Below, piece by piece: positions 1-64,000 of a stretch of 64,000 nt of DNA (its first letter is position 1; each line of letters opens with the position of its first letter). The stretch is from NCBI GenBank assembly GCA_000697055.1, contig JNDT01001891.1:1-64000 (forward strand), read 5' to 3'. This stretch comes from Saksenaea vasiformis B4078. Lineage: Eukaryota; Mucoromycota; Mucoromycetes; Mucorales; Saksenaeaceae. The position numbers were made by a program, and so were the translations under genes. The notes below the pieces were generated by a model that was not told the origin of the DNA, did no database searches, and saw only the letters and a program-made list of their open reading frames with translations.

Positions 1-247
1 CAATGAGACGTAATGATCGTTCTCTAAGCTTTCTCGGTCTTCCCGTTCTAGGTTTCGACGCGGTAGTTCCAGTTTCATTGAATCTTTTTACTATTTTTTG
101 GACCGTAGATCGATCCAGTCCCCTGGACTTAGCGATTGTGCCATACGACATTCCAGCCTCCCTCATGCCCACGATGATCGCACGCTCTTCCACTGAAATT
201 TCAGTATTTGGTTTGCGAGTGTTGTTAGAGATATCCTGAAGAGGCAT
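1..247 (-). CDS. Tc1/mariner-type transposase, N-terminal part, cut by window edge
   Basis: Reading leftward from an ATG at 247-245, the frame stays open to the window edge (82 codons). It shows the paired helix-turn-helix DNA-binding region of Tc1/mariner transposases: an entry segment (EISVEERAIIVGMREAGMS), a second helix pair (YGTIAKSRGLDRSTVQKIV) and the GRPRK basic linker between the two helix-turn-helix units. In the family this part binds the terminal inverted repeats; the DDE catalytic domain would lie left of the window. The gene sits about 100 bp downstream of the Fanzor gene on the same strand. A possible terminal-repeat edge is the CACTCCTAG at about 349-357, but the left end is not available for comparison, so the element boundary is unproven. 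Whether the transposase is intact cannot be judged. Confidence 0.8.
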   Translation of the reverse strand, partial: MPLQDISNNTRKPNTEISVEERAIIVGMREAGMSYGTIAKSRGLDRSTVQKIVKRFNETGTTASKPRTGRPRKLRERSLRLI

Positions 248-348
248 AGCAGCTAGTTTACGAGAGAAGTGAGAAAAGTCGAGTGATATTCCTATCCTAC
301 GCGTTTTACACTCTGCGGAGTTTATTCAAGTGTAGACAGACTTTCTTT

Positions 349-3300
349 CTAGGAGTGTATAAGAACACTTACTAATGGTCTGAGAGCTTGATCATCGGCA
401 GCTTGTCCCAACTGATGGTGGTGGCACACCTTGATCGGACACACGCTGCTGCGATTATCTGTAATGGCTATATTAAAAGATCCAGTTAGAGTAACAAGTA
501 TGCAGCCTGATATTTACTTGCCTAACGGTCGAAGATCTGGGCATTGTGATGTCGGATGCATAGTTCGTTCGTTCTCGTCAAGGCAATATCGTTTGGCTCT
601 CCCAGCCCCGACAAACCGAACTACTTTGGTTCTATTGATGAAGTCCAATTTTCGAATATTTCCAGCGGTTTGATACATACTCGTGTGGACATCGTGCTGT
701 TGGTGCTCGAAACTGTTCCGTGTCATGGTCGCAGTTTGAACACACCTTGCTAGTGTTGTATTCAGCGACCAGAACAACGAGAGCGTGCCTTGCGAGAACT
801 TGCCGGAATGTCTAGTATTTGGAATGCGTGAGACTTGTCTATAAGAACTTGTAAATGCTCACCTTCACTGGAACTGGACCCTGGCCACGCATTGTAGGTC
901 GCAAATCCGCGTCACCGTATGCAATGATTGCTGGTTGTTCTGGACGAGGATGTTGTCGGCGTGCCTTGCGACGGCGATGCTTCCGCGATGATGGGGTCGA
1001 CTTGTAGTGTGGTCGTACGTCCGGCTTTTGTAGATAAGTTAGCATAATGTGAAATCTTTAGAGACTTACGTGTCGGGGTGTCCAATTGGCAATGCGATCA
1101 GCCAGCACGTCGAGTGTTCTCCGCCTGGCAGAGTAGAAAAGGAGTCGATTTTCTCGATGTCGATAGCTTTTGTTGAAGTTATGGAGCCTAATAAGGAATT
1201 AACAGAATTGATTTCATGCGTTTTCTTCTTACGTGTTATGAATGATGCTCAAGGCAGTGATATATCGCTGAAATCCTTGCATGCTCATAACGGTGGGAGG
1301 ATTGTTCGTCAGTAAGTCGTACTGAGGCTGTATTTCTGCCGCGGTCCTAGATTTCAGTTCATTCTGCTTCGACCATGAAAACATTGACCGCAGTCTATCG
1401 ATACCAAGATTAGCTCAACAATAGGGGGACATTTGTAACTTACTGGTACTCTTTGTTACTGATCGTGGCAGAATGAGCGTTGCGAAGTTCGGGAGTGTCC
1501 ATAGCTTCGTTTGTATCTACGGCTGTGAACAACGATCGGATCCCTATAAGAATGTTAGATGCAGAAAGAGATCGACTGTCAGTCACGCGCCTGGATCTAC
1601 ACCAATGATTCTTGACTGAGCTAATCGATCCTGGTCTAGCCCACGAGGCTCCTTATTCAGATGATATATTCCTCTTTGCCAAGTACTCAGGTCCATCTCT
1701 CGGGGCAGCAGTCGAAAATCTCGTTTAGAAGATGGATATCGTTCTTATGAAACACAGTAAGTAATGGAAGACTCTTCATTGGCATACCTGGTCGACGGCG
1801 GTCGAATTGTACGGAGACAGACACCCCGTCGGTTTGCAAGTAATATGCAAACTCCAACTGGAGTTCCGGTTGATCATCTGCAAGAAGCAAATCAGTTGGA
1901 TGATAGACTTAAATAGAAGATTGCTTACGTTCAGGATCAAATCGCCGACGTTTCGCTTGACATTTATCGATATCGAAAATTTCCTCCCAAATCGCCTCTT
2001 TCCACTCGCTGTCGCGGCATCGATGCTCGAATTGTCGTTGAGGCATGAACGCTCTTCGGAGTGGACCTCGTCGTGGGCCCTAAATTGAAAAAAGTATCAG
2101 ATGCATATACTATGTAAACTTGGTTACCAGAAGCCGTTCGGGAACATGCTGGTTTGCCAAGTAGGCGTCTCGCAGTAGATACCACAGTACTCTTGTGAAT
2201 ATGGGAAAATGGCCGATCTGATGGTCGGTTATCGGAAGCAATGACCAGAGTTTCCCGTTATATTCGGTACTGTAATGGTGCAAATGATATATATACTGAA
2301 CAATACGTGGCATGAGCGGAACAGCTTCGTCGTCTTCCGGGTCCAAATCACGGATTTCCACACCAGCCATATGACGTTCGTAAAGTTCATGCTGGATACT
2401 ATGAGAGCGGCATAGATGTTAATCAATTACACCCAATTAATCTGTCGTACTTACCGGTAAAACTCTGCCACTTCTGCTCGACGAGGCATATCTTCCCATA
2501 CGTGATCCTGCAATGGTTCATGGTTGAGAACGTTTGCTACAGCTACATCAGCTATAAATGATAGATATGAAATCACTGGACCTTTGAATAGAGTTCATTT
2601 ACCATGATGAGCGGGGCCGCCACCGGGGAGATTCCCTCCAATCTGTTCCTTCAAGTTGACAAAGTACGCGCGGAAGACCATTTTCAGAAATATAGGGACA
2701 TTGACCACCAAATGTCGTTTTACATCTATTGGTACAAATTATTGATGATTATGGAGTATTGATAATATGAACATTAAAGTACTTTGAATTATTTGGGCGG
2801 GAAAAGTATCTGCAAATGAGCCGTACACTCCTTGAACTTCTACGATCCCGTAAAAGGCTATTACGTATATTTTTAGGAATAATCGATGCATATGAGCAGC
2901 TGGAAGCAGTATATATATCTTACGTTCATTAGCATCGACATTCCTACGGAGAGGATGGAAGTGCGATATGAAAGTTTCGAGTAGATCGATCTGCCATTCC
3001 GGCTAAACAACGTAGCTTTCCGTTAGACATCTTGATAGAACTATACTGTACTTACATCTACGCCTCGGATCACCGTGCTCACTCGGTTGTTAGCGAACCG
3101 GTAGGCTCTACTCCAAAATATCCTAGTCGTAATGGGTGGGAACTCAAAAGCGTTCTCTGTGCCGAGTCCTTCGACCCAGCAACGCAAATGGAGATTCACC
3201 AAGTTAACTGCGTCGCGTTTCATTACATGATATTCTTCGGCAACAAGTTGCAATTGCTCCTGTCAATAGCGCGTTAACAAGATATTGCTTGTTGGAATGA

Positions 3301-3461
3301 ATACTCACTCGTAAGTATTTATAGTCATTGTTTAGAAAACTGGACAGCTTTAGTTTTCTGGTAACTCTTTCTATCTTGCCATCGGTTCGCGGTAGAAGTG
3401 ATTGGCGATATCGCTGTCGTTGCCGTTGCCTCGGCGGGCCTTCCTCAGCAAGGGGTTCCAT
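349..3461 (-). CDS. Fanzor-family (eukaryotic TnpB-like) RuvC nuclease, 17 exons, 765 aa
   Basis: Hand-spliced exons are 3461-3309, 3259-3056, 3002-2924, 2857-2783, 2725-2603, 2551-2455, 2398-2128, 2079-1929, 1877-1788, 1743-1591, 1543-1444, 1394-1233, 1187-1070, 1024-863, 811-681, 631-522 and 467-349. They total 2298 nt with every junction in frame. Visible motifs: RuvC-I IIGVDPGIRSLFTAVD (Asp about 464); a conserved AYGDADLRPTMRG block (about 630); RuvC-II LVVLVAEYNTSKVCSNC (Glu about 663) running into the first CxxC of a zinc finger; further Cys in ARCPHE and VCPIKVC; and a final QAADDQA (Asp 751/752) in the RuvC-III position, weaker than the usual RDxNAA. Family knowledge: Fanzors are eukaryotic relatives of TnpB and are guided by an RNA encoded near the gene's 3' end. 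The start was chosen as the first ATG of the open exon 1. Introns 10 and 16 use GC-AG. The last ten codons may lie partly in the flanking Tc1 repeat. Activity is not established. Confidence 0.82.
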
Positions 3462-4204: not shown

Positions 4205-5599
4205 TCAGCAGGCCCTATTCCCGATATTTGCGCTTACTCGTACCGTGGTCATTTGGAAGTCGAACTCTACGTCATTTGTCAAGGTATAGATCATATAGAT
4301 CAATCGATCCACTCTTCTATTCTGGTTTCTTCCAAGGTAGGTTGTCTTGAGCTCGTTGTGCCAGCTTTCCACGTAGTTGTTGGTCTCCATGTTCGTGAAG
4401 ATCTGTGGCTGGAATGCTGCACACCAATACCTGATCCGGTCATCGTCTATCCATTGCTCGCGAAAGTAATTCATGAAGACGGTGTGGTGCGAATACGATT
4501 CGACGAATTTGGCGAATTTTTCGATAGCGCATGACACATCTCTTTCCCACATGAGCGATTTAAGATCGGTGATGATCATCTTGTGTATGCGTTGATTTTC
4601 TGCTGTACTTCCAACCTTGACTTTTGTACGGATGTTATCCATCCATGCTCGAGCAACATGGAACAGGCATTGCTGAATGGTCACTGTTGGAAACACAGCC
4701 TTGATCGCACCTTGTTCAGCCAGACTACAGTCGATTGTTATCTTTGTTGGCGTTTTCAGACTGCAATTGCCCGTAAGAAAGGTCAGCCATTTCACCAAGG
4801 GGCGACTGCTCCGATCTCTGGTAAAGAAGTAACCGACAGGGCAACCGTTTCCTGTCACTCTGTGGCGGACAACAAGAGTATACAATATGCCGCTAGAGAT
4901 GGCAGTGGTGTTATGTGTGGCATCGAGACAAAAAGCATTCGACTCAGCGAGGAGGCTTTTCTGCCATGGCGAACAAAAGGCGAAACTGTACTGGTCGATC
5001 GTTGAGAACACACTGTATCCTTTGGAGTTGAGTTCAGTTAGCCATAGTTTGACTGACTCCACTTCGTTTCCTCTCTTCTTGAACTCCCTCTCTTGTGCCT
5101 TGCAGTACAGGTTGTAGATATCTGCCGAGTGCAATGCCTGATCTCTATGCGAGAGCATTGGCATTTGTTCGTCATCCTCAACAGCTGTAAAACGTGCAAA
5201 TCGTCTCTGCAATTCAACACGGATATCTCGTTGCTGGTATCCTTGCTGGATTCTGGTGAGGATGATTTCCTTTACGGAATCAGACAATGGTAAGTACTCT
5301 ATGTCTTCCAATGAGCAGTGTGAACCCTCATGTTTGATTGTCACCGTTTCTTGAGAATGGCGATCACGAGTAACGATTAAACGCGCAGTGCATCCAATCT
5401 TCTTACTTGGCTTTTGGAGTGGACGCATTTTGCCAGATGTACCACCAGGGAGACGATCGTGTCGATTTTTTTTAGTTCCTGAGCGATGGCACAAATACAC
5501 GTTTCTCCAAAGGTGTAAAGATCGTTTTTCGCGTCGTCCGGTCTGCTCCTCCATCTCACCCTTACTAGACTTCACCGCTGAAGGATAACGAGAATCCAA
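4205..5599 (-). pseudogene. MULE (Mutator-like) transposase, probably frameshifted at its 3' end
   Basis: A 464-codon open frame carries an N-terminal FLYWCH/FAR1-like zinc-binding region (KPSKKIGCTARLIVT then HEGSHCSLEDIE, about residues 64-101) and a MULE transposase domain: first Asp in FCLDATH (about 226), second Asp in KITIDCSLAE (about 290), the C2H motif CLFHVARAW (about 311) and a late Glu near NNYVESWHNELK. This is the DDE catalytic set of Mutator-like elements. The open frame begins at a TTG; the first in-frame ATG is near 5554, and an upstream exon at 5760-5600 is possible. At about 4208 the frame stops, but the +1 frame continues as GPAERQRRKNRQ, which looks like the expected continuation, so a one-base frameshift is likely. 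No SWIM zinc finger could be recognised afterwards. It lies about 740 bp upstream of the Fanzor gene on the same strand. Confidence 0.75.
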
Positions 5600-6407
5600 G
5601 ACACTCCATACACCTGCGGAGAGTGCTTAATAACATTCTCCCAATCTCTGACATGAAGTTCTTGCGTATCAGGAATAGCTTGATATCTTTGGATAATAAA
5701 ATTTGACATATTGTATTGTAGAAATGCGTTTTCTGACTTCTTTTGGAATTCAGAAATCAAAGAGATGGACTTCGTCCCAATATGGAAAGTAAAAGATGTC
5801 CGACAGCCAATCCTTGTCGAAAGATCACTTTTTCACTTCTTTCTCGCGAAATATGAACGCGAACAAAAAAGGAAGAACATATTCTTTCTCTACTCTTTAT
5901 GCTCTATCGAATGGTATTTTTTTTTACAAAAATATTTTTTTGGTGAAATTTGAGTGAAAAATGGCGATTTCCCAAGGTTAACCTCTTTGGTTTTTGCTCA
6001 TCTTTAGCTGCACTTGCAAACTTTCAACTAGCAACTTCAAAAAATCTTTTTCTTTCATTTATATATCAAAATGTAGCTGCTTCCTTCCTTTTCCATGATA
6101 TGCTTTCCATTCTTTGCTGCGAGTTTTTTGCATGGATTTTTCTCAGATAAATGGAGAAAATGGTAATTTTTCAATGACGTTGCATTTTTTAAGAATCACT
6201 CATCAAAGCCACCTTCTAATTTTTTTTAGAAGACCGAATAAAAGTGGGTGACATAAGGGCGTGCCGTGCCGTGCCGGTGCCCGTGACTGCATCCGAAAGT
6301 GCACAAACTGCTTGAGGGCCTGTGTACCAAGAAGCTCCTCCTTCATTTGCATCCGTACGTAAAACCGTCCATCCATCAGGGCATAATCACTGATCTTTCA
6401 CGTTAGC
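5600..6407. other. AT-rich intergenic region and RPP1 promoter
   Basis: Short open frames here look random. The part at 5900-6230 is very T/A-rich. A run of GTGCC units lies at about 6261-6285, some 125 bp before the RPP1 start codon, and may belong to its promoter. A leftward 62-codon frame at 5760-5572 might be a first exon of the MULE gene. Confidence 0.4.
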
Positions 6408-9471: not shown

Positions 9472-11018
9472 TTATGAAGACAACCACATAATGATGGACC
9501 CCATGATAGCTGTAGCAACGTATGCAAAAGTGGCACTCACCGAAGAGGCACTATTCGGTGGTGCGGCGCCAACGCCATTGACAGTTCCTCCTAGTCCGGT
9601 TGCTGCAGCAATACCAATCCGGTTACTGCCCACATCAAATACAAGATACGCGCTACGAAGCACGGAGTCGCCAAGGACGAAGAAACGGCCGTCCAATATA
9701 TCGACGGTGGACGTGTTTAGAGGAGCGATACCGAATATACATTTACTTGCTTGTTGAATAGTTGGTGCATCTACTGGAAGAACAAGCTGTGAAACTGGGA
9801 CACTAAAGGTCACCAGATTACTGTTATTTTCGGACGATGAATGCATCTGGAATTCGACAGTAGCTTTGCTAAAGATCGTCTGACAACCTATTTCATAGGC
9901 ACCTTGCACGGCACTGAATATGATTCTATCGGTGACAGCTGAGACGGCATCCAATGCGATCTTGGGTGGTAAATAAGTTAAGGTTGTCCCCGTATCAAAA
10001 ACGAACGCAGTTGGAGAGTCGAAATGGTGGCTGAAGTTGGATATACCATTTTGCACCTGAACGCCTTGGGCAGAGACCATCCAGTACGAGTATTGCGAGT
10101 TACCTGAACCAGTGCTAAGAGTTTGGTGTGGCGGATAAGAGCTCTGACTCGTGTCCACATAGGCAACAGGTAGATACGCCAGCTCGCCTGTATACTTCGT
10201 ATGATCAATACCACCAAAAATTATTTCTCCTGCCCATCCTGATACATCTTGGTTGTTCATGTAGATGGAGAATATGGGTTCTGGGATCAGTTTTTGGGCT
10301 ACCATATTAAATAAGACTGGGTTGTATGGCTGCTGACCAAGACCAGTAGACGCAGTAAGAAGCCGATAACCCATGCCGAGAATACCATCCGCGATGACAC
10401 CGTCGCTATTTGGATTATTTCTTGGGGTTGTAGTACCATAACTAGTAGTTATTGTCAAGATATCGAATGATGAAGTAGCGAGAGCAAATTGCTGACTCTT
10501 CACTGTTATCCCCGCTATCGTCACGTCGTCGCTCACATATGAGCCATTGGCATTGCCTATTCCATAGACAACACCAAAAGGTTGGTTCAGTGTTTTAAAC
10601 GTTGAAGACTTGCTTCCGTCGAATCTTGCGTAGGGACAGGAAGCAGCAGGGCATTGACTAGACGGAACCCATAAATCCGCACTTTACACAAAATAGAAGT
10701 CCGATTGAGCATACATAAAGTTTTTCCCATTATGCAAGTTTCTTGGCCAAAAAAAAATTTCTTCGTTTACCTGCCCGTATCAAGTACAACTGCAAACTTT
10801 TGAGGTGGTGTCCCGATACCAACTTCAATAAGATACTCTGACCCTGCATCATTGTACAGCGATGCTTGCCCCTGGCCTTGGCTTGACGCGGAAGCATCTC
10901 GTGCCGCGAGTGATCTTCGATACAGTGGCGTACGTATGAAGCCTGGTGTGTCGGTGCCCGTTGTGGAGTAGACATTTGTCGCAGCTGCGAGAAAAATTAA
11001 GGATAGCCTAATATACAT
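9472..11018 (-). CDS. Pepsin-like aspartic protease A, probably GPI-anchored
   Basis: Two exons (11018-10771 and 10681-9472) encode 485 aa. The first has an N-terminal signal peptide (about residues 1-19), a short propeptide with basic residues, and the entry to the catalytic centre VGIGTPPQKFAVVLDTG. The intron (phase 2) splits the codon after DTG, so the joined sequence reads DTGSADLWVPS. The second catalytic Asp is in FVFDTGTTLTYLP. The C-terminus ends in a hydrophobic stretch (ATAIMGSIIMWLSS) after small residues, which suggests a GPI signal as in yapsins. Family role: secreted or wall-bound endoproteolysis at acid pH. It is one of four paralogues in this cluster, all transcribed leftward. 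Sequence divergence from B and C shows it is an older copy. Confidence 0.92.
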
Positions 11019-12304: not shown

Positions 12305-13798
12305 TCACACATGAGGCACGACTGTGTGCATCAGGGGCACTGTTTGGTTTGTCAGAGACATCGTTTGGTTTATCAGGGATATTGTCTGGTTATCAGGGAC
12401 GTCGTTTGGATTGCTCGGACCTAGACCGGTACCGTCGACATTTGCATTTGACCCTTTTGCTCCAGCAAGGCCTAAACGATTCTGCCCAATGTCGAATACG
12501 AGATAGGTGTAGCGTAGAACTGATTCACCAACTATGAATGTGTTATTGTACAGCGCGGCAACTTTTGTAGGTGGAGTATTGGGAGCGATCCCGAACACAT
12601 AGTACATGCTTTCATTAGCACCCACGGGAAAAAGTAATTCGAGAGCTGGGATCGTCAATCTGACCGGATCATCCTCCTTGTTGCCTGAGATTGAGAACTG
12701 AAACTCGATCCTGGCGTTAGTCGACAGCAGCGCTTCCTTGGCCACAACATACGCGTTTGATACAACATCGTATGCGTAAGTGTTGTTCCCATCTGTTACT
12801 GCATTGAGGATCGCCTCCACTTCATATGCTGGAAAATAACAAAAAGCGGTACCGGTGTCCATAATGAATGGCTCAGGTGATTGTAAAGGAAGAGCGACAC
12901 CGCTATTGCTCTTATGCACTCGGAAGCCTTGACCGTACACAGACCAAAAACGGTAGGCGTGATCCTGTTTGGATGGAGCTACCGGAAGATACACAATGTT
13001 GCCAACGTATTTGGATTCGTCAACACCACCGAAAATCATCTCGCCTACCCATCCTGATGCAGAAAATGTGTTCATGTAGACGGAGAAAATAGGCTGTGAA
13101 ATCAGGTTCTGTTCTATCATGTTAAAGACAAGACCGTTGTATGGCCTTTGTTCAGTTGTTGCCTGAGATGTCAATGCCGGATAGCCGAGGCCGAGAATTC
13201 CATTGGCTAACGTAATATTTTCCGAGATAACTTGACTTGCTGTATAGCTGTACCTGTCAAGAATACCCTCTGATAACATTACGAAACCAAGCTGTTGGTT
13301 TGTAACAGTGATACCTGCTACGTGCACTGAATCTGTGGCATACACTCCACCTGCTACACCAGTTCCATAAATGATATTAAACGTTTGATTCAGCTCACGG
13401 AAGGTGGAAGACTGGGCTTCATTGAATTTAGACCGTGGGCACGACGGACAATTGCTTGCAGGAATCCATATGTCTGCGCTGTATCGTCGTCGGCTATCAG
13501 TATTTACATCCATTTTCGCTTGCGTTGCAATGTACCTTCCTGTATCGATGGAAACAGTAAAAGTTTGCGGTGGCGTTCCAACACCGATATTGATAAGATA
13601 CTGTCGACCATGATCACTATAAAGTGGAGACTTAACAGGACCCTGCATCTCAAGACCATGCTGGAAGACTTCGGAGCCTTGTTTTGCTTTGTACAATGGC
13701 GATCGAATAAGCTTGGTCGTTTGAGTAGTAGACAAATGTGCTGTCGGTACTATTGACACAACTGCTGCCAAGACGAGGATCGACAAGTGGGTGTGCAT
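12305..13798 (-). CDS. Pepsin-like aspartic protease B, no GPI tail, stop-free intron
   Basis: Exons 13798-13536 and 13478-12305 give 478 aa. A signal peptide (MHTHLSILVLAAVVSIVPTA) and propeptide precede VGVGTPPQTFTVSIDTG; after splicing the centre reads DTGSADIWIPAS. The second catalytic motif is FIMDTGTAFCYFP. The 57-nt intron has no stop and keeps frame, so an unspliced message would add 19 residues directly after the first catalytic DTG. Unlike A, C and D there is no C-terminal hydrophobic segment. The end instead holds repeated NQT sequons (NQTISLINQTMSLTNQTVPL), so the product may be secreted in soluble form. A stretch at 12985-13197 is nearly identical to protease C. It is a paralogue in the four-gene cluster. 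Confidence 0.92.
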   Translation of the reverse strand: MHTHLSILVLAAVVSIVPTAHLSTTQTTKLIRSPLYKAKQGSEVFQHGLEMQGPVKSPLYSDHGRQYLINIGVGTPPQTFTVSIDTGRYIATQAKMDVNTDSRRRYSADIWIPASNCPSCPRSKFNEAQSSTFRELNQTFNIIYGTGVAGGVYATDSVHVAGITVTNQQLGFVMLSEGILDRYSYTASQVISENITLANGILGLGYPALTSQATTEQRPYNGLVFNMIEQNLISQPIFSVYMNTFSASGWVGEMIFGGVDESKYVGNIVYLPVAPSKQDHAYRFWSVYGQGFRVHKSNSGVALPLQSPEPFIMDTGTAFCYFPAYEVEAILNAVTDGNNTYAYDVVSNAYVVAKEALLSTNARIEFQFSISGNKEDDPVRLTIPALELLFPVGANESMYYVFGIAPNTPPTKVAALYNNTFIVGESVLRYTYLVFDIGQNRLGLAGAKGSNANVDGTGLGPSNPNDVPDNQTISLINQTMSLTNQTVPLMHTVVPHV

Positions 13799-16561: not shown

Positions 16562-18048
16562 TTAGTACAGTAATGCAACGACTCCACCGACGATTCCGGC
16601 AACAATGGCAGGCAAACGCAGATTAACGTGCGATGCATGATTAAGTTCTTTAGAGTTGTTTGGATCTAAGCCGTTGCCGCTCACAGTCGCATTTAAGCCC
16701 TTTGCTGCAGCAAGTCCTAGACGATTCTTTCTCATATCGAATGCGACATAGGCGTAACGAAGTACTGAATCACCAATTAAATACATATCTTTGGACGCTG
16801 AGTTGACTTCTGTTGTTTCAGCAGCAGGAGCGATTCCAAAAACGCTGTACATAAATGCGTCAGAAGATAGAGGAATCGTTAATTCAGCAGCCGGGATGGT
16901 CAGCCGGACCGGAGAATCGTCTGTTTTGCCTGAGATAGAGAATTGAAACTCAATCTTAGCATCCGTGGCCACCAGTGCTTTTCTCTTCACAAGATACACT
17001 TTCGATCGAGGGTCATATGCGTAGTTTTCGGGCCCTCCTGTTACTGAATCGAGGATTCCCTCCACCACCTGAGTTGGAAAATAGCAAAGAGAAGAGCCCG
17101 TGTCCATAATGAATGACGCAGGCGATTGTAACGGAAGGGAGACGGTGACGCCGCTTTTGAGAACCTGGAATCCTTGACCGTATATCGACCAGAAACGGTA
17201 AGTGTTGTCCCTTTTGGATGGTGCCACGGGAAGATAAACCATGTTGCCAACGTATTTAGATTCGTCTACACCACCGAAAATCATCTCGCCTACCCATCCT
17301 GATGCAGAAAATGTGTTCATGTAGACGGAGAAAATAGGCTGTGAAATCAGGTTCTGTTCTACCATGTTAAAGACAAGACCGTTGTATGGCCTTTGTTCAG
17401 TTGTTGCCTGAGATGTCAATGCCGGATAGCCGAGGCCGAGGATCCCATTGCTGACCATAGTATTCCGCTGGAGAATTGTTATTGGAACACCATTCTTGGT
17501 GAGGATATCGACTGTATCTGTTGCAAGTCCAAGCTGTTGGTTGGCAACAGTAGTACCTGCTATCTGTACGGAGTCTGTTACATATACTCCGGCAACCTTG
17601 CCTATTCCATACGTAATTTGAAATTGTTGCCTCAGGTTTTGGAAAGTCGAAGAGTGGGTTTCATCGAACCTATTAAACGGACATACAAGGGCAGGGCAGC
17701 TTGTTGATGGAACCCACGTATCCGCACTCAAGAGTCGTTGGGCGTCAGCACATGTATCAGCTTCTCTATTTCGTTTATCATCTACCTTCCTGTGTCGATG
17801 GATACAGTAAACTTTTGAGGCGCAGTACCTATGCCGATTTCAATAAGATACTGCGTCCCACGATTATTGAAGAGTAGAGATTTAAGAGGATCGCGTTTGT
17901 CGAGGTCTAACTGGAGGTCTTGGGAGGCATGGTTTGTTTTGTACAATGGTGTACGAATGAGCTTGGCCGTTTCTGCGGTAGGCAGATGCGCTGATGTTAC
18001 TGTCGACGCGGCCACTGCCAAGGTGAGGAGAGACGGATGGATATGCAT
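16562..18048 (-). CDS. Pepsin-like aspartic protease C, probably GPI-anchored
   Basis: Exons 18048-17786 and 17726-16562 give 475 aa. A signal peptide (MHIHPSLLTLAVAASTVTSA) and propeptide with dibasic KR come before IGIGTAPQKFTVSIDTG; spliced, the first centre reads DTGSADTWVPS. The second is FIMDTGSSLCYFP. The C-terminus (NLRLPAIVAGIVGGVVALLY) is a GPI-type hydrophobic tail, consistent with a yapsin-like wall protease. It is the closest relative of protease B; one stretch of about 200 bp differs at only about five bases, while flanking parts are much more divergent. The intron position is shared with the other three paralogues. Confidence 0.92.
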
Positions 18049-21539: not shown

Positions 21540-23119
21540 CTAGAGCGCAGTGGCTATCAAAGCCAATGCGACAGCAGCGGCTGTACTGAGCTTTCCGATC
21601 TGTGTTGTCATGCCTGCAGAACGGGGATGGCCAGTGGCAGGGTCGATATTGGTCGGGAACGGAAAGCTCGAGTGTGTTCCTATATATCGTCCGTTTGAGC
21701 CGGTAGACGAAGGTACAAGTGCGTCGGTCCACGTGTAAGGGGAACCCTTCGATTGAGCTAGACCCACACGGTTGTTCTTCATGTCGTATACTTGATACAT
21801 CGATCGAAGCACAGAATCGCCGAGAAGATAACCTTGGGATGCCGGATCACTCAAAGATGCTATCGGGTGACTTAAGAGACCAAACACACAATGACTTGCG
21901 GTTTCAGGTCTGCTGCTATCCACAGGGATAATTAAATTAGCAATGGGTACAGAGATTCTGACAGGCTGGCTAGTGGTGCTTGTAACAGAGGTTGAGAAGT
22001 CAAGATCCACTGTGCTTTGACTTTTCGCTAATGCACACTTGACGCTGTATTGTTGACTGAAAAGTATGCTTGACCAGTCCGAACGATTTGCAGTAATCGC
22101 ATGCAGGATGCCTTCAATAATCTCGCTTGGGAAATACGAGAATGAAGATCCAGTGTCAAGGATGGCCGGCTTGAGATCGCTGAAGTTGCTCTTGTAACCT
22201 GGCAGGCCGTCCTTGGGTTCGACTGACACAGACTGACCTGGGACAGTCCAATAAACGTTTGTGCCTTTCAGATTACCAAACTTTCCGATATTGGCAGAGA
22301 CGCCGAAAAAGCCTGGGCCATAAGAGACCACAGGCAGGTAACTGAGACTACCAGAAAACTTTGTCTGATCGACACCGCCAAGAATCAATTCGCCATGATA
22401 TCCGAGTAGGAATGGATTATCAAAATAAACCGAAAAGATAGATTCTGGGATTGCCTTCTTGGCTGCGAGGTTGAATACCACAGGAACGTTACTCTCGCTA
22501 CCATTGCTTGCAATTGTGGCTGGCCAGCCTAGACCGATGAGGCCATTGTTGGGTGGATCACCGGGAATACCAAGGATCTGACGTGCTTCCACAGCAAGGC
22601 CAAAATATTGGCCGGTGACGGAAACGGAGCCAATAGTCACAGTGTCGATGCCATAGCTACCGTTGGCGGAACCCTTACTGTATGAGACTTTGAAATCTAG
22701 ATGTGGATCGGTGAAAGTGGACGACTTTGATTCATCGAAACGACCATAGGGGCAGACCTTCTCTGGACATTTGACAGAAGGAACCCACAGATCGCCACTA
22801 AACAACACGTTTAATTGAGCTATGATTCGGACCCTTTCTCTCTCTCACACCTTCCAGTATCCAGACTGACGTTAAACCGTTGACTTGGGGTACCGATTCC
22901 AACCTCCACCAAGTATTGTTTGGCGTGGACGTTGAATAACTGGACCGTAGATCCGTCACGTTTATCCATCATGAGCGATCGTTTTATTGATTCCTTGTTG
23001 GTGTCTTCAATTCGATGAATAGGGAGGCGCAAAGGCTTCGATCCTTCAGATGGACTTTTTGCCGCGTCACCAAGTGCTATACAGCACGCGATGGCGGACA
23101 AGATATTAAAAATACGCAT
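21540..23119 (-). CDS. Pepsin-like aspartic protease D, probably GPI-anchored
   Basis: Exons 23119-22851 and 22797-21540 give 508 aa, the longest of the four paralogues. A signal peptide (MRIFNILSAIACCIALGDA) and a propeptide with KR sites lead to VGIGTPSQRFNVSLDTG; the spliced centre is DTGSGDLWVPS. The second centre is AILDTGSSFSYFP. The tail has a Ser/Thr/Gly-rich stalk and a final hydrophobic run (STAAAVALALIATAL), consistent with GPI attachment. The intron (53 nt, phase 2 in the Ser codon after DTG) is at the same place as in A-C, so the split predates the duplications. Promoter elements were not identified. Confidence 0.93.
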
Positions 23120-24840: not shown

Positions 24841-27800
24841 ATGGAGGATAAACCGCACAAGGCACATCATCCCAAGCGAGCGGGAAACAAAGCTGAGCGA
24901 AAGAAAGAGAAAAAAGCTAGCGCACCTCAGAAATCGAACAATCCTAAGGTAAATCGCCCAGATCTTTACAAAAAGTGGATCGCAGTTGTCTAAATCCGGA
25001 ATTAGGCATTCACATTCCAAGGTCTTGGAAAAGCTGAACGAGCTGCCCGACGCAATTTCGATATAGGCGAGAAAAAACTCCATGTGCCTTTGGTCGATCG
25101 TACACCGCTTGAAGCACCACCAGTCGTAATTGCTGTTGTCGGTCCTCCAGGGGTAGGTCTTACAGCTGCTCAATGCAAAGAAGAGATATTTACCATGCAT
25201 TTAGTCCGGAAAATCAACCCTTATTCGATCGCTCGTTAAACGATACACAAAACACAACATCAATGACATTAGAGGTCCTATTACACTTGTCAGTGGTACG
25301 TTTACATGAAAAAATTCAACCCGCAAAAAGTTTTTTTTTTCTTTTTTACTAAGAGAATCCATATAGGCAAGAAGCGCCGTTTGACTTTTATCGAGTGTGC
25401 AAATGATATGAACTCCATGATCGATGTAGCCAAAATTGCAGACTTGGTGCTGCTCATGATCGATGCCAGTTTTGGTTTCGAAATGGTAAGCTGATAGACG
25501 TATTTCGCGCGATTTTATTTATTACAATTGGTATTCCAGGAAACATTTGAGTTTCTGAATATTCTCCAATCCCACGGTTTTCCTAAAGTGATGGGTGTCT
25601 TGACACACTTGGATAAGTTCCGCAATAACAAGACTTTGCGTACGACCAAAAAGCGTCTGAAGCATCGTTTCTGGACTGAAATCTATCAAGGTGCCAAGCT
25701 ATTCTACTTGTCGGGTATCATCAATGGCAGATATCCTAACATGGAAATCCAAAATCTGTCGCGATTTATTTCTGTCATGAAATTCCGTCCATTGATCTGG
25801 CGCAACACTCATCCCTACGTTGTTGCGGACCGTGTGGAAGATTTGACTGATCCAGAATTGCTGCATCGTAGACCTAATTGCGATCGTACCGTGACACTTT
25901 ATGGTTACTTGCGTGGCACGAACTTGAGATCGAACATGCGGATCCATATTCCTGGTGCTGGTGATCATGTTGTCTCAGATGTATCTGTCCTACCCGACCC
26001 ATGTCCACTTCCAGATAAAGAACGCAAGCGTTTGGATGAGAAGCACAAGTTGATTTATGCGCCTATGTCGGATGTTGGTGGTGTCATGTATGACAAAGAC
26101 GCAGTCTATATCAATGTCCCTGGTAACTTTACGAAAAAATCTGCCCTTGCACCTACCGAACGTGAAGAGGGTCAAGATATGGAAGAGGACACGGAACCTG
26201 CTGGCCCTGGTGAGAAAATGGTGATGGATCTCCAGGATGCCAAGGATACCCTTGCTGCTCAACTTGCAGAATCAGAACTGCGCATCTTTTCTGGATCAGC
26301 ACCTATGAGAGCTGGAGATATCCCATCGGATAACGAAGAAGAGGAAGAAGAAGGAGGTAAGATTTAACATGTTTTATAAAACTTGATTTCATTTGGGAAC
26401 ATCCAGGTATTACCGAACGCCTAGAACAGGATGGTACAGGAAGAACCCGCAGACGAGCAGTATTTGGGGATGAAGACGAGGAGATGGAAGACGACGGCGA
26501 CGACGATGACGAAGACGATGACGAAGACGATGACGAAGACGATGACGAAGACGAGGATGAACTGATGGCTAGTGATGATGATGAGGACGAAGATGGAAAG
26601 ATCCCTCTCCGAGGACGGGCACTCACAAAGTTCGATACCCGTAATATCCCAAGAAAAGGCGAGAAAGAGGATGCAGAGGATATGAGCAAAGAAAAGGATA
26701 TCCAGTTTGCAGACAGTGACAGTGAATTTGGCAGTGGTGACGAAGAAGACATGATTAATGTAGATGGTCGTCGTCGCCACGTTGATGATGAGGAGGAAGA
26801 GGAAGAGAACCTTGCAGGGGAGCTCCGTTGGAAAGCCAATTTGAAGGAGAAAGCAAGCGAAATGTTCCGCGCTCATCGTCGTGTCAACCTTATGTCACTT
26901 ATCTACGATAGTCCTGATGTGACACCAGAGGATATTGTCAATGGCAACTATGGTTCAAAGGATGATGAGGAGAGTGAAGATGAGGGTGACGAAGAAGATG
27001 AAGAGTTCTTCCGTTTGAAGCGAGAAAACAATGATAATTCAGCGGAAGTAATTGATAGCACACGCAGCCTTTTGCCAGCCGGTGATCTGGAAGAATGGGA
27101 TGACGACGAGGTTTGTATAATAGGAAGGGTATTGGATTGTTTGTATTAATCCTTGCTTGAAGGTATTGGACTCCATTCGAGGACGCTTTATCACTGGCGA
27201 CGCTTCTGGCGGGGCCAAGGACGGAAACGGGGAGGAAGAAGAAGAAGTGTATGGTGACTTTGAAGATTTGGAGGAAGGGGAGAAGAACGACGATCAAGAA
27301 GACGAGGAAGAACGTGACCCTGTTGAGGTGGAACGGGAGAGATTGGCTAAGCGCAAGGAGGAGCTCAAGAACAAGTTCAATCGCGAGTACGATGGAGAAG
27401 AGGAGGACGATGCTCCTGAAATGGACTTTTATGAAAAGCGCAAGGCTGAGATTGAAAAGCAACTTCAGACAAACCGTGCCGAGTTTGAAAACGACGATCC
27501 TCACACCCGAGCCTTGGTGGAAGGCTACAGACCTGGCAGCTATGTGCGTTTGTTGATCAAGGATATGCCATGCGAATTCATACAGAACTTTGATCCTGTC
27601 TACCCTGTTCTTGTTGGCGGCTTGTTGACGTCCGAAGACCAGTTTGGTTTAGTTCAGGTCCGAATCAAGCGTCATCGATGGCACCGAAAGATCCTGAAAA
27701 CCAACGACCCGCTTATCTTCTCAATGGGCTGGAGACGTTTCCAGAGTATCCCTGTCTATTCACTGAATGATGGTACACGAAACCGAATGTTGAAATACAC

Positions 27801-28917
27801 GCCAGAACATATGCACTGTCTAGCCACGTTTTATGGTAAGTGTAACCTCTGTGCCACGTGGGAAACCTAATTTCTTCGCAGGACCTGTACATACTCCCAA
27901 TACTGGTTTCTGTGCCGTTCAGTCGGTGTCCGACAACAAAACGGTAAATATTAGCGATTCTTCACGTGCTTTTCTAAACAGACACACGTAGTCATCCTTC
28001 CGGATAAGCGCGACGGGTGTCGTTGTTGATATCAGTCAATCTACCGAGATCGTCAAAAAGCTCAAGTTGACTGGTACTCCACAGAAGATCTTCAAGAACA
28101 CAGCGTTTATCAAAGACATGTTTACCTCTTCAATTGAAGTCGCCAAATTTGAAGGTGCAACGATCAGAACTGTCTCAGGTATTCGTGGTCAGATTAAGAA
28201 AGCTTTGCCGAAACCCGAAGGTCATTTCCGTGCAACGTTTGAGGATAAGATCTTGATGAGTGGTAAGTGACGTAATGTTTTCAGAAAAGCGATATAACGG
28301 GTGATTTGTGCAGATATTGTTTTCTTACGAGCGTGGTATGGCGTTAAGCCTCGTAAATTCTATAATCCTGTGACATCGTTACTGTTATCATCGAAATCAG
28401 AATGGCAGGGCATGCGCCTAACAGGCGAAGTTCGACGAGAAAGGGGTGAACACGCCCCTCAAAATGTTGATTCCATATACAAGGTATGACTCATCAGCCC
28501 TAAGAAGATAGATGAAACTGAATTATTATTATTATTATTTTTGGGTAGCCAATTGAACGCAAGACAAGGCGATTCAATGCGTTGAAGGTGCCCAAGTCCT
28601 TACAAGCGGACCTGCCGTTTGCATCCAAACCGAAGATCGCCAAGGCTCAGAAGGCACAAAGCTACGAGGCAAAACGTGCCGTTGTTCTGGAGCCAGAGGA
28701 AAAGAAGATATACACTTTGATGCAACAATTGAACACACTGCGTAACGAAAAGACTCGTAAACGCAAGTTGAAGGACAATGAGCGTCGGGCAGAATACGCC
28801 AAGAAGAAGGCCAAGGAGGATGCGGTGACAGTTGAGAAGGATAAGGAACGACGCAGGGCGTACTTCCGAAAGCAATCACAGGAAGCAGCTGCCAAAGCCA
28901 AGGCGAAATCTCGATAG
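24841..28917 (+). CDS. BMS1: Ribosome biogenesis GTPase Bms1
   Basis: Eleven exons (24841-24948, 25006-25152, 25205-25295, 25367-25485, 25540-26356, 26407-27110, 27163-27835, 27882-27943, 27992-28262, 28314-28483, 28549-28917) give 1176 aa. The N-terminus is basic ([20 protein letters not shown]). The G1 loop is GPPGSGKST, formed by joining exons 2 and 3; the G4-type motif is THLDK. The AARP2CN-like region follows, then long acidic tracts (about residues 475-740) and the conserved C-terminal DUF663/RIBIOP_C block ([41 protein letters not shown]), ending Lys/Arg/Ala-rich. Family role: nucleolar GTPase that binds Rcl1 and drives early 40S (SSU processome) maturation. Length matches the family. 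The 3' end is about 175 bp from the ADE12 start, same strand. Confidence 0.95.
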
Positions 28918-58612: not shown

Positions 58613-62252
<3,640 letters not shown>

Positions 62253-64000
62253 GATCCGATGTTTCTGTAAAGCAGAGGAAAGGGGGAAACAAAAATTTCA
62301 GAAAGGAAGTGTTTAAGGACAGCTGTCGGGGTTTATGACGTTGCGAAAATGACCCAATGAAATTCCCAATTCAAACAACAGTATTGTTTGTTTCAACGGA
62401 CTGGGAAGAAATGAAAAGGGAAAAAGGGGAACCACCTGCGTTATTGTTCATACCAGGTTATACAGAGCTATCATGTGCCCTACTTTTCCACTGTCAAAAT
62501 CAAATAGCGTCATATGTTATCACAAGACAACCATCTTCCTCCAAGACAAAAAGGTCCCGTTAAACTTGATCAATGAGAGCACCCTTTTCATCCAGGCCTG
62601 CAGCTTTAGTGGTTCATCAATTCTGGTAGGTATCACATTTCAGATCTAAGGATGCTAAGCCGCTTACTAACGTAAGTTGACGTGTGGTTGCACGTGGGGC
62701 AATCAAAACTTTTCTTTTCATCAGCTCACTTTTTAAGTAAATTGGGTATTGGGTTGTCTATGGACAAAGCACATCAGGACTATATCCGTTCCTTATGTAT
62801 CCATTCCATGGGATATTTGCCAATCTTTCTTCTCCCAGTTCAGACTTTCAATGCCCGGAGGAAATCATTGTTACAGCTCAGACTATAAAAAAGATCTTGG
62901 TGCCTTGAGTTAGAATCGTTGAGCACATGTGCTCAATGCGCAATAGAGTGATGCATGATGAGCAAATGCATGTTTAGTTGACAATCAGAGATCATTGTGC
63001 CGAAGGACTTGGAAAGGTACAACCGTATTTCAACCGCGAGCGTCCTGTGAATTTGTGTGATTTGCTGATCATGACAAAGGCATCCAACGCTTGATTTTGG
63101 TATCCACTCTTTTCAATATACTGTGACGGGTTGCACTCCCTCCAGACTTATGTAGAAGGTGTGATCCCTTTCTCCGCAGGAGAATGAACAGGTTTGGCTT
63201 CTGACATACGCGCCGTCTTCTTTGTTAATATTATGAAGATTGACGTCGTGCCTTAGCCAAATCCTTAACGGGGTATTCAGTTCTCCGGACGTCTCTTCTG
63301 CTTCCACATTAAAAAGATAGGCGCAGCAATGCTCCTATCTCTACGTTTAGCTCATGACTTTGCCTCTCAAGCCAATCTCTTCAGCTTAACTTTGATGATC
63401 AGCAATAGTACTACCACGTTTAAATCATCCATGACATGCTATCTGAACGATACACGGATTTTTGCATGTAACTTTTTCACCTATCGAGAAGGCTACTTGC
63501 TTTGATCATCAGACAAGTTTATGTTAGCTAGGAATAAGAGGTGACAAGTGATTGTAGTTACCATGCAGAAGACAGATACGTATTATGATGATGCCAATTT
63601 GTCTGTCGTTGAGATGATTGAGGAGGGAGACGCAGAGATGTCTCATTCCTCTTGTAGACACGTGTATATCAACGGATATCGCAGATATCGTGTATGCAGC
63701 TATCCATTGTAAACCGTAGCGTACTTTTCCTACTGATAACATTTATTTGGACAAAAGTAAGTTTACAAGTTGTACGATTGTGCAGTCTTCTGAGTGTCCC
63801 AAAATAATAGACAGAATGTCACCTTCCCCTTAGAGCCATAGGAGTGGAGTCGCCTCGACATCGTGAAATACGTTTACATCAGATTTGATATTTAGGGAGG
63901 GGGTCTAATGCAGCATGGAAGAGCATACGGTGATACAAAGATTGGCGCTGAATTTACATACTATTCTGCTATTCTCAGGAAGGTTTGATGTATCTATTGA
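62253..64000. other. Intergenic region to window end, no gene seen
   Basis: Starts with the helicase promoter. Short frames (for example 62357-62563 and 63524-63742) lack domains. A gene made of small exons cannot be excluded. Confidence 0.35.

Follow-up and report, generated by a model that had tools for sequence, protein, structure and literature searches.

A probable Mutator-borne Fanzor1 gene copy in Saksenaea vasiformis whose RuvC-III exon lies beyond a Tc1/mariner insertion

The stretch of DNA analyzed here, called the window throughout, comprises 64,000 nucleotides from Saksenaea vasiformis B4078 (contig C421, positions 1-64000), and most of an intron-rich nuclease gene is found near its left edge. 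The best hits of one gene fall in Apophysomyces (65%) and Radiomyces (60%), pointing to a Mucorales-like fungus. It is very likely, in our judgment, that this gene belongs to a multi-copy Fanzor1 family and is borne by a Mutator-like element (MULE), and that a Tc1/mariner transposon in intron 17 has split off the exon encoding RuvC-III. As we read it, the element would run leftwards from about position 6258, first through a MULE transposase and then through an 18-exon Fanzor gene, and would continue on a second contig, C344.

An earlier note on this DNA had proposed an apparently complete Fanzor gene of 17 short leftward exons joined at 16 in-frame junctions, and this arrangement was reproduced. 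The frame opens on the minus strand with an ATG at 3461 and, when spliced, descends to 373 through 17 exons and 16 in-frame junctions with no stop, provided that two junctions use GC donors (at 1590 and 521). All on the minus strand, exons 1 to 5 lie at 3309-3461, 3056-3259, 2924-3002, 2783-2839, and 2603-2725, exons 6 to 10 at 2455-2551, 2128-2398, 1929-2079, 1788-1877, and 1591-1743, exons 11 to 15 at 1444-1543, 1233-1394, 1070-1187, 863-1024, and 681-811, and exons 16 and 17 at 522-631 and 373-467. The introns between them measure 44-93 nt; 14 of the 16 are GT-AG and two are GC-AG, namely intron 10 (1544-1590) and intron 16 (468-521, donor GCAAGT). GT donors tried at these two introns were dropped, as both run into stops. 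The codon count is 756 rather than the 765 given earlier, or 759 if intron 3 ends at a TAG acceptor that is present in all 15 aligned rows, the window among them. Exon 4 starts at 2839 with this conserved acceptor and at 2830 with the AAG acceptor of the 756-codon model, which is the model used for residue numbers and for dN/dS.

The motifs named in the earlier note are likewise found on the spliced frame. GVDPG, which is RuvC-I, lies in exon 10 (Asp codon at 1597-1595), and AEYNTSKVCSNC, which is RuvC-II together with the first zinc knuckle, falls in exon 15 (catalytic Glu codon at 763-761; CSNC at 742-740 and 733-731). The second cysteine pair of the zinc ribbon would, by its position, be encoded in exon 16. 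Directly before the catalytic Glu the window has Ala. Fourteen other copies include this site, and 12 of them have Asp there; the exceptions are L038, with Ala like the window, and L012, with Tyr.

Can such a reading, with its many short exons, arise by chance? The other copies in the genome argue that it does not. A search of the 38.7-Mb genome with the window protein gave 165 matches, which fall, among the matches listed, in at least 31 places including the window; some of these places, at contig edges, may be two halves of one locus. The 30 places besides the window were retrieved, and 20 of these were aligned with it for splice sites. At each intron the sites are largely common to the aligned copies, single decays aside, with a few rows misaligned (e.g., L037 at introns 1 and 2). 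At intron 10, where the window has a GC donor, the 16 copies shown (window included) divide into 6 with GC and 10 with GT. Compared with L017, on contig C420, all 17 exons of the window are equal in length, and the 749 codons compared give a dS of 0.697 and a dN of 0.085, hence a dN/dS of 0.12. The nearest copy spanning all 17 exons, L009, yields 0.018/0.098, or 0.18, and the values for 20 other copies against the window range from 0.08 to 0.41. Because of the shared splice sites, the exon lengths of L017, the dN/dS of 0.12, and the Fanzor1 profile match described below, we regard the spliced reading as beyond chance; the window's reading frame would appear to have been maintained by selection until recently.

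Eight copies extend from exon 1 to exon 18, including L016, which lacks the first 29 nt. The only unbroken one among them is L017 (C420, 2000-5290), with all splice sites and a frame of 798 codons. A second Fanzor subfamily is made up of L025 to L033 (C272, C445, C606, C233, C298, C177, C363, C535, and C538), and protein identity between the two subfamilies is roughly 45-76%, depending on the stretch. As an observation in its own right, all 16 copies shown have the GC donor of intron 16, and this points to a stable GC-AG intron rather than decay.

The earlier assignment to the Fanzor family was correct, and the type is Fanzor1; it is, however, a family profile and no single sequence that identifies it. 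When the window model alone was searched against the PDB, the only match was PpFz1 at an E-value of 0.13, which is not significant, and this search was dropped as family proof. The earlier note had suggested a check against TnpB/Fanzor profiles, and the outcome depends on the profile: for Pfam PF07282 (TNB, cut-off 26.3 bits) the window model scores 17.2 and L017 23.5, both below the cut-off, and an NCBIfam scan gave no entry near cut-off, whereas a profile of our own, A2, built from L017 and four relatives (five sequences) and run with hmmsearch against the PDB, matches the Fanzor1 structures SpuFz1 (1.3e-13) and GtFz1 of Guillardia theta (3.1e-9). PpFz1, a solved structure from Parasitella parasitica, which also belongs to the Mucorales, is absent from the A2 matches at E ≤ 1. 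The catalytic residues of SpuFz1, which PMC11423790 gives as D383, E541, and D606, align in the profile alignment (offset 394) with the Asp of GVDPG, the Glu of DEY, and the Asp of WNRD in exon 18. On the strength of this profile match and triad alignment, we assign the gene, by its sequence, to Fanzor1.

The Fanzor1 motif, as worded by Bao and Jurka (2013; PMC3627910), is D-X(125,275)-[TS][TS]-X-X-C4 zinc finger-X(5,50)-RD. It can be followed through L017 from D455, over 201 residues, to T657 S658 and then K V, the presumably zinc-binding cysteines 661/664/697/711, 41 further residues, and R753 D754. The window lacks this RD, which stands on the other contig.

Relatives in the protein database are few and distant. 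The nearest among the matches listed are two fungal proteins, P0001 (hypothetical protein BJV82DRAFT_676465 of Fennellomyces sp. T-0311; 36% identity over 87% of the query) and P0002 (BYT42DRAFT_617251 of Radiomyces spectabilis; 42% identity over 16% of the query). P0001 stops after RuvC-II and finds no match of its own in the PDB, P0002 is without the N-terminal half, and neither name says Fanzor. When the C-terminal half of L017 served as the protein query, two more distant proteins were obtained, one of them with PF07282; this search was of limited reach, because it did not bring back the known relatives P0001 and P0002. P0001, P0002, and these two proteins are the four relatives that entered profile A2 with L017.

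What follows exon 17 decides whether the window's copy is complete. In all 15 copies shown past the window's break, exon 17 is succeeded by a 17th intron and then by an 18th exon, which reads FWNRDV in 12 copies and contains RD in 14 (L015 and L023 each keep the RD despite one changed residue; L024 is without the R), and L025, of the second subfamily, has FWNRDINAGRN. The exon goes on to ...RNMRRILVAYMENGH... in L009, L016, L017, and L020, whereas L010 has a frameshift at this point. Intron 17 of the window's copy begins with GTAAGT at 372 and the sequence then switches at 359 to TACACTCCTAGAAAG..., which is repeated elsewhere in the genome. This is the terminal part of a Tc1/mariner element (1-359, minus strand), starting TACACTCCTAG at 359, with a transposase ORF whose ATG stands at 247; contig C421 ends within it. 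The HTH domains of this part match PF25787 (Sleeping Beauty HTH) at 7.1e-10, below the cut-off, and PF13551 at 1.2e-9, above it.

The transposase continues on contig C344 (PF01498, 4.1e-13). There, in order, stand the rest of the Tc1 transposase, the opposite terminal repeat, TATCTGTTGCTCTG... belonging to intron 17, and exon 18, whose acceptor, WNRD, and stop are intact; the right end of the Fanzor element is on C344 as well. TA is found at both Tc1 joints and terminal repeats at both ends, and uninterrupted copies read ...TTCTTATATCTG..., from which it follows that a TA was duplicated on insertion. The element thus has the TA target duplication, the terminal repeats, and the transposase domain of Tc1/mariner. 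Its two halves come to 359 (window) + 990 (C344) − 5 (overlap) = 1344 nt, and a full-length copy at L023 is 1343 nt. Of the RuvC triad, then, the window's copy has the D and the E; the third D is absent, being encoded by exon 18 on C344. Judged from these alignments, the copy is incomplete, and a Tc1/mariner insertion has cut off its RuvC-III exon.

This bears directly on the earlier picture of a complete gene stopping at 349, in which D751/D752, part of ADDQALRPL in exon 17 (codons at about 396-391), served as the RuvC-III Asp. That the frame is open so far is true; but exon 17 ends at 373, and the last codons and stop of that model (349-372) are the opening bases of intron 17 and, after these, Tc1 terminal repeat, within which the stop at 351-349 falls. 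Each of the 15 copies shown has an exon 18 further on, with RD in 14, and it is the exon-18 Asp, not ADDQ, that aligns with SpuFz1 D606. ADDQ is therefore not RuvC-III as far as the alignments tell, and we find a gene ending at 349 scarcely credible. Motif reading alone can mistake ADDQ for RuvC-III, and comparison of the copies was required to see it.

As C421 and C344 are separate contigs, their junction inside the Tc1 element is not read through, and a contig that terminates in a repeated element invites the thought of an assembly error, the true locus running directly into exon 18. We consider this highly improbable: the joint is exact, with a TA target in the intron followed by the terminal repeat, and the two halves, with their 5-nt overlap, sum to a full-length Tc1.

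A further possibility is that intron 17 is still removed by splicing, Tc1 included, and that the locus yields full-length Fanzor with RuvC-III. The donor GTAAGT at 372 is intact, as are the acceptor, exon 18, and stop on C344, and we would leave this reading some room, while regarding it as unlikely, for an intron of about 1.4 kb would have to be removed in a gene whose others measure 44-93 nt. We favor instead an interrupted gene in which the last intron, enlarged from about 50 nt by about 1.34 kb, would be poorly spliced, so that the main product would end within the Tc1 repeat and, having no RuvC-III, would be a dead or weak nuclease. From its sequence, then, the window's Fanzor copy is probably split and inactive. 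The earlier suggestion of a copy active, or recently so, is accordingly to be divided: activity of this copy now is not likely, and recent activity is a fair but unproven reading, exons 1-17 being open and dN/dS against L009 being 0.18.

The element that hosts the gene is, by its transposase, Mutator-like. Upstream of Fanzor and within the same element lies a MULE/MuDR transposase ORF (4205-5626, minus strand), which matches PF10551 (8.9e-8) and Transposase_mut (6e-6), above cut-off. Among 39 genome matches (E ≤ 1e-20), it is the sole full match of 451 residues and has no stop; two of the 39 cover at least 440 of the 451 residues, and the window's is the only one free of stops. The left end of the element is placed at 6234-6258 (minus strand), beginning CCTTATGTCACCCACTTTTATTCGG at 6258, and is partly common to L010, a Fanzor element without transposase that shares much of the window's left-end stretch. 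L020 aligns with the window over 5.8 kb, MULE and Fanzor together, and L014 over most of that. MULE pieces occur in 11 of the 30 other retrieved Fanzor loci; the piece found in the second subfamily, in 6 of the 9 loci L025-L033, is in reversed orientation.

The low dN/dS could also be expected of a domesticated host gene that is no longer transposon cargo. We give this almost no credence in view of the many copies with common ends and different flanks, the seven of eight full-reach copies broken by stops, frameshifts, or splice-site loss, and the MULE pieces beside Fanzor both in the window and in those 11 other loci.

Right ends of the element, in copies with different flanks, fall on the same or nearly the same base. 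The terminal inverted repeats are about 11 bp and imperfect (CCTTATGTCAC vs ACTTAAGTCAC), and no longer ones were found in the three elements searched. Of seven elements with both ends, one has a target-site duplication within the 8-11 bp typical of the MuDR/MULE superfamily: C538 (L033/L052, second subfamily) carries the 10-bp CAAGGTCATA at both ends, and its left end begins TGTCAC, internal to the left ends of the other copies. The remaining six have no such repeat at their ends (a 9-bp repeat of C525 is located elsewhere), and mismatched end pairs give repeats of up to 7. No target-site duplication was seen for the window element.

From around the stop codon toward the right end, both subfamilies share a nearly identical block, GCTAGGC[AC]GTAAG...AAC[TG]GCCAAC[AT]AGCCTCT..., which was aligned for 25 of the 30 extracted copies. 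In the hairpin that contains the stop codon and the hairpin next to it, 99.2% of cells are paired. One pair changes from A-U to C-G between the subfamilies (columns 54/64, stop-codon hairpin); this change distinguishes the two subfamilies only, and because it is one event the compensatory support is modest. By eye, the pairing of the first hairpin is also kept between the subfamilies. All 500 of 500 shuffles are beaten on the percentage of pairing, on the covariation score, and on the count of doubly changed cells, and the number of doubly changed pairs (1), equalled by 491 of the 500, is at chance level on that measure. RNAalifold's second compensatory pair (columns 31/106) was discarded, as it belongs to a long-range pairing that we do not believe. 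Folding energy of the whole 122-nt block is not striking (z of -1.9, -2.1, -0.4, and -0.9); the 79- and 69-nt cores give -2.85 and -1.38. An Rfam scan of three loci returned 0 matches. In the window's own 3' half, on C344, 11 nt of the block are missing.

The hairpin block overlapping the stop codon is a candidate omega-RNA by analogy with SpuFz1 of Spizellomyces punctatus, whose 75-nt scaffold lies between the stop codon and the right end and extends 14-15 nt into the flank (PMC10432273). By the same analogy, an intact protein of the family would bind RNA transcribed from a block spanning the stop codon and the right end, and with a guide from flanking DNA it would cut matching DNA, as demonstrated for SpuFz1.

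In 24 of 27 copies the block is directly succeeded by a stretch of 54-60 nt that runs GTAAG ... TGACTTA(A)G (one-base variants allowed), leaving about 7-9 nt to the element end; L023, L026, and L035 are without it. In length this intron-like stretch resembles the gene's other introns (44-93 nt). We raise, as a rather doubtful idea, that the guide RNA of this family might be completed by splicing, the intron-like stretch being removed and the scaffold joined to flanking guide DNA. If so, a eukaryotic transposon would mature its omega-RNA through the host spliceosome. The idea is weakened by the acceptor-like bases, which double as terminal repeat, and by the shortness of GTAAG, easily met by chance; no branch-point match in the stretch stands out by eye.

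Set beside known systems, the family is Fanzor1, and what is new is the carrier with its transposase, the deep intron content, and the RNA arrangement. From Rhizopus, Phycomyces, and Mucor, Bao and Jurka (2013; PMC3627910) described Fanzor1 in MuDR-type elements (ROr-4, PBl-3, and MCi-4) that lack a MuDR transposase and have 9-bp target-site duplications and terminal inverted repeats like those of confirmed MuDR elements. The likeness lies in Fanzor1 being found in Mutator-type transposons of Mucorales, with one element here having a comparable duplication; the differences are the open MULE transposase in the window element, the short, imperfect inverted repeats, and a clear duplication in one of seven elements. 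Neither the literature matches listed nor section 12 of PMC3627910 describes a Fanzor element that encodes a MuDR transposase itself.

With SpuFz1 (PMC10432273, PMC11423790) the family has in common the RuvC D/E/D triad, the zinc ribbon, the WNRD, and an RNA-like block located after the stop codon on the side of the right end. It differs in having 18 exons where SpuFz1 is a single ORF, a longer stretch from zinc ribbon to WNRD, and an intron-like stretch between the RNA block and the right end. A diverged family is thereby added to Fanzor1 (36% identical to the nearest among the matches listed), with its own Mutator-type transposase in the element. With its numerous copies in two subfamilies, one of them unbroken, and a common RNA-like block, it offers a usable system for studying the production of nuclease and guide RNA alike by an intron-rich transposon of eukaryotes.

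Elsewhere in the window, four aspartyl protease ORFs (PF00026, E-values 1e-53 to 6e-59) form a tandem family on the minus strand within 13.4 kb, at 9472-10683, 12305-13798, 16562-17839, and 21540-22844. An AARP2CN domain lies at 25498-26367 on the plus strand (PF08142, 1.9e-29), followed by ORFs to 27870 with long acidic stretches, and this plus-strand region, 25498-27870, presumably resembles BMS1. Two neighboring RanBP2-type zinc-finger proteins (PF00641) are encoded on the minus strand at 58613-59500 and 61332-62297.
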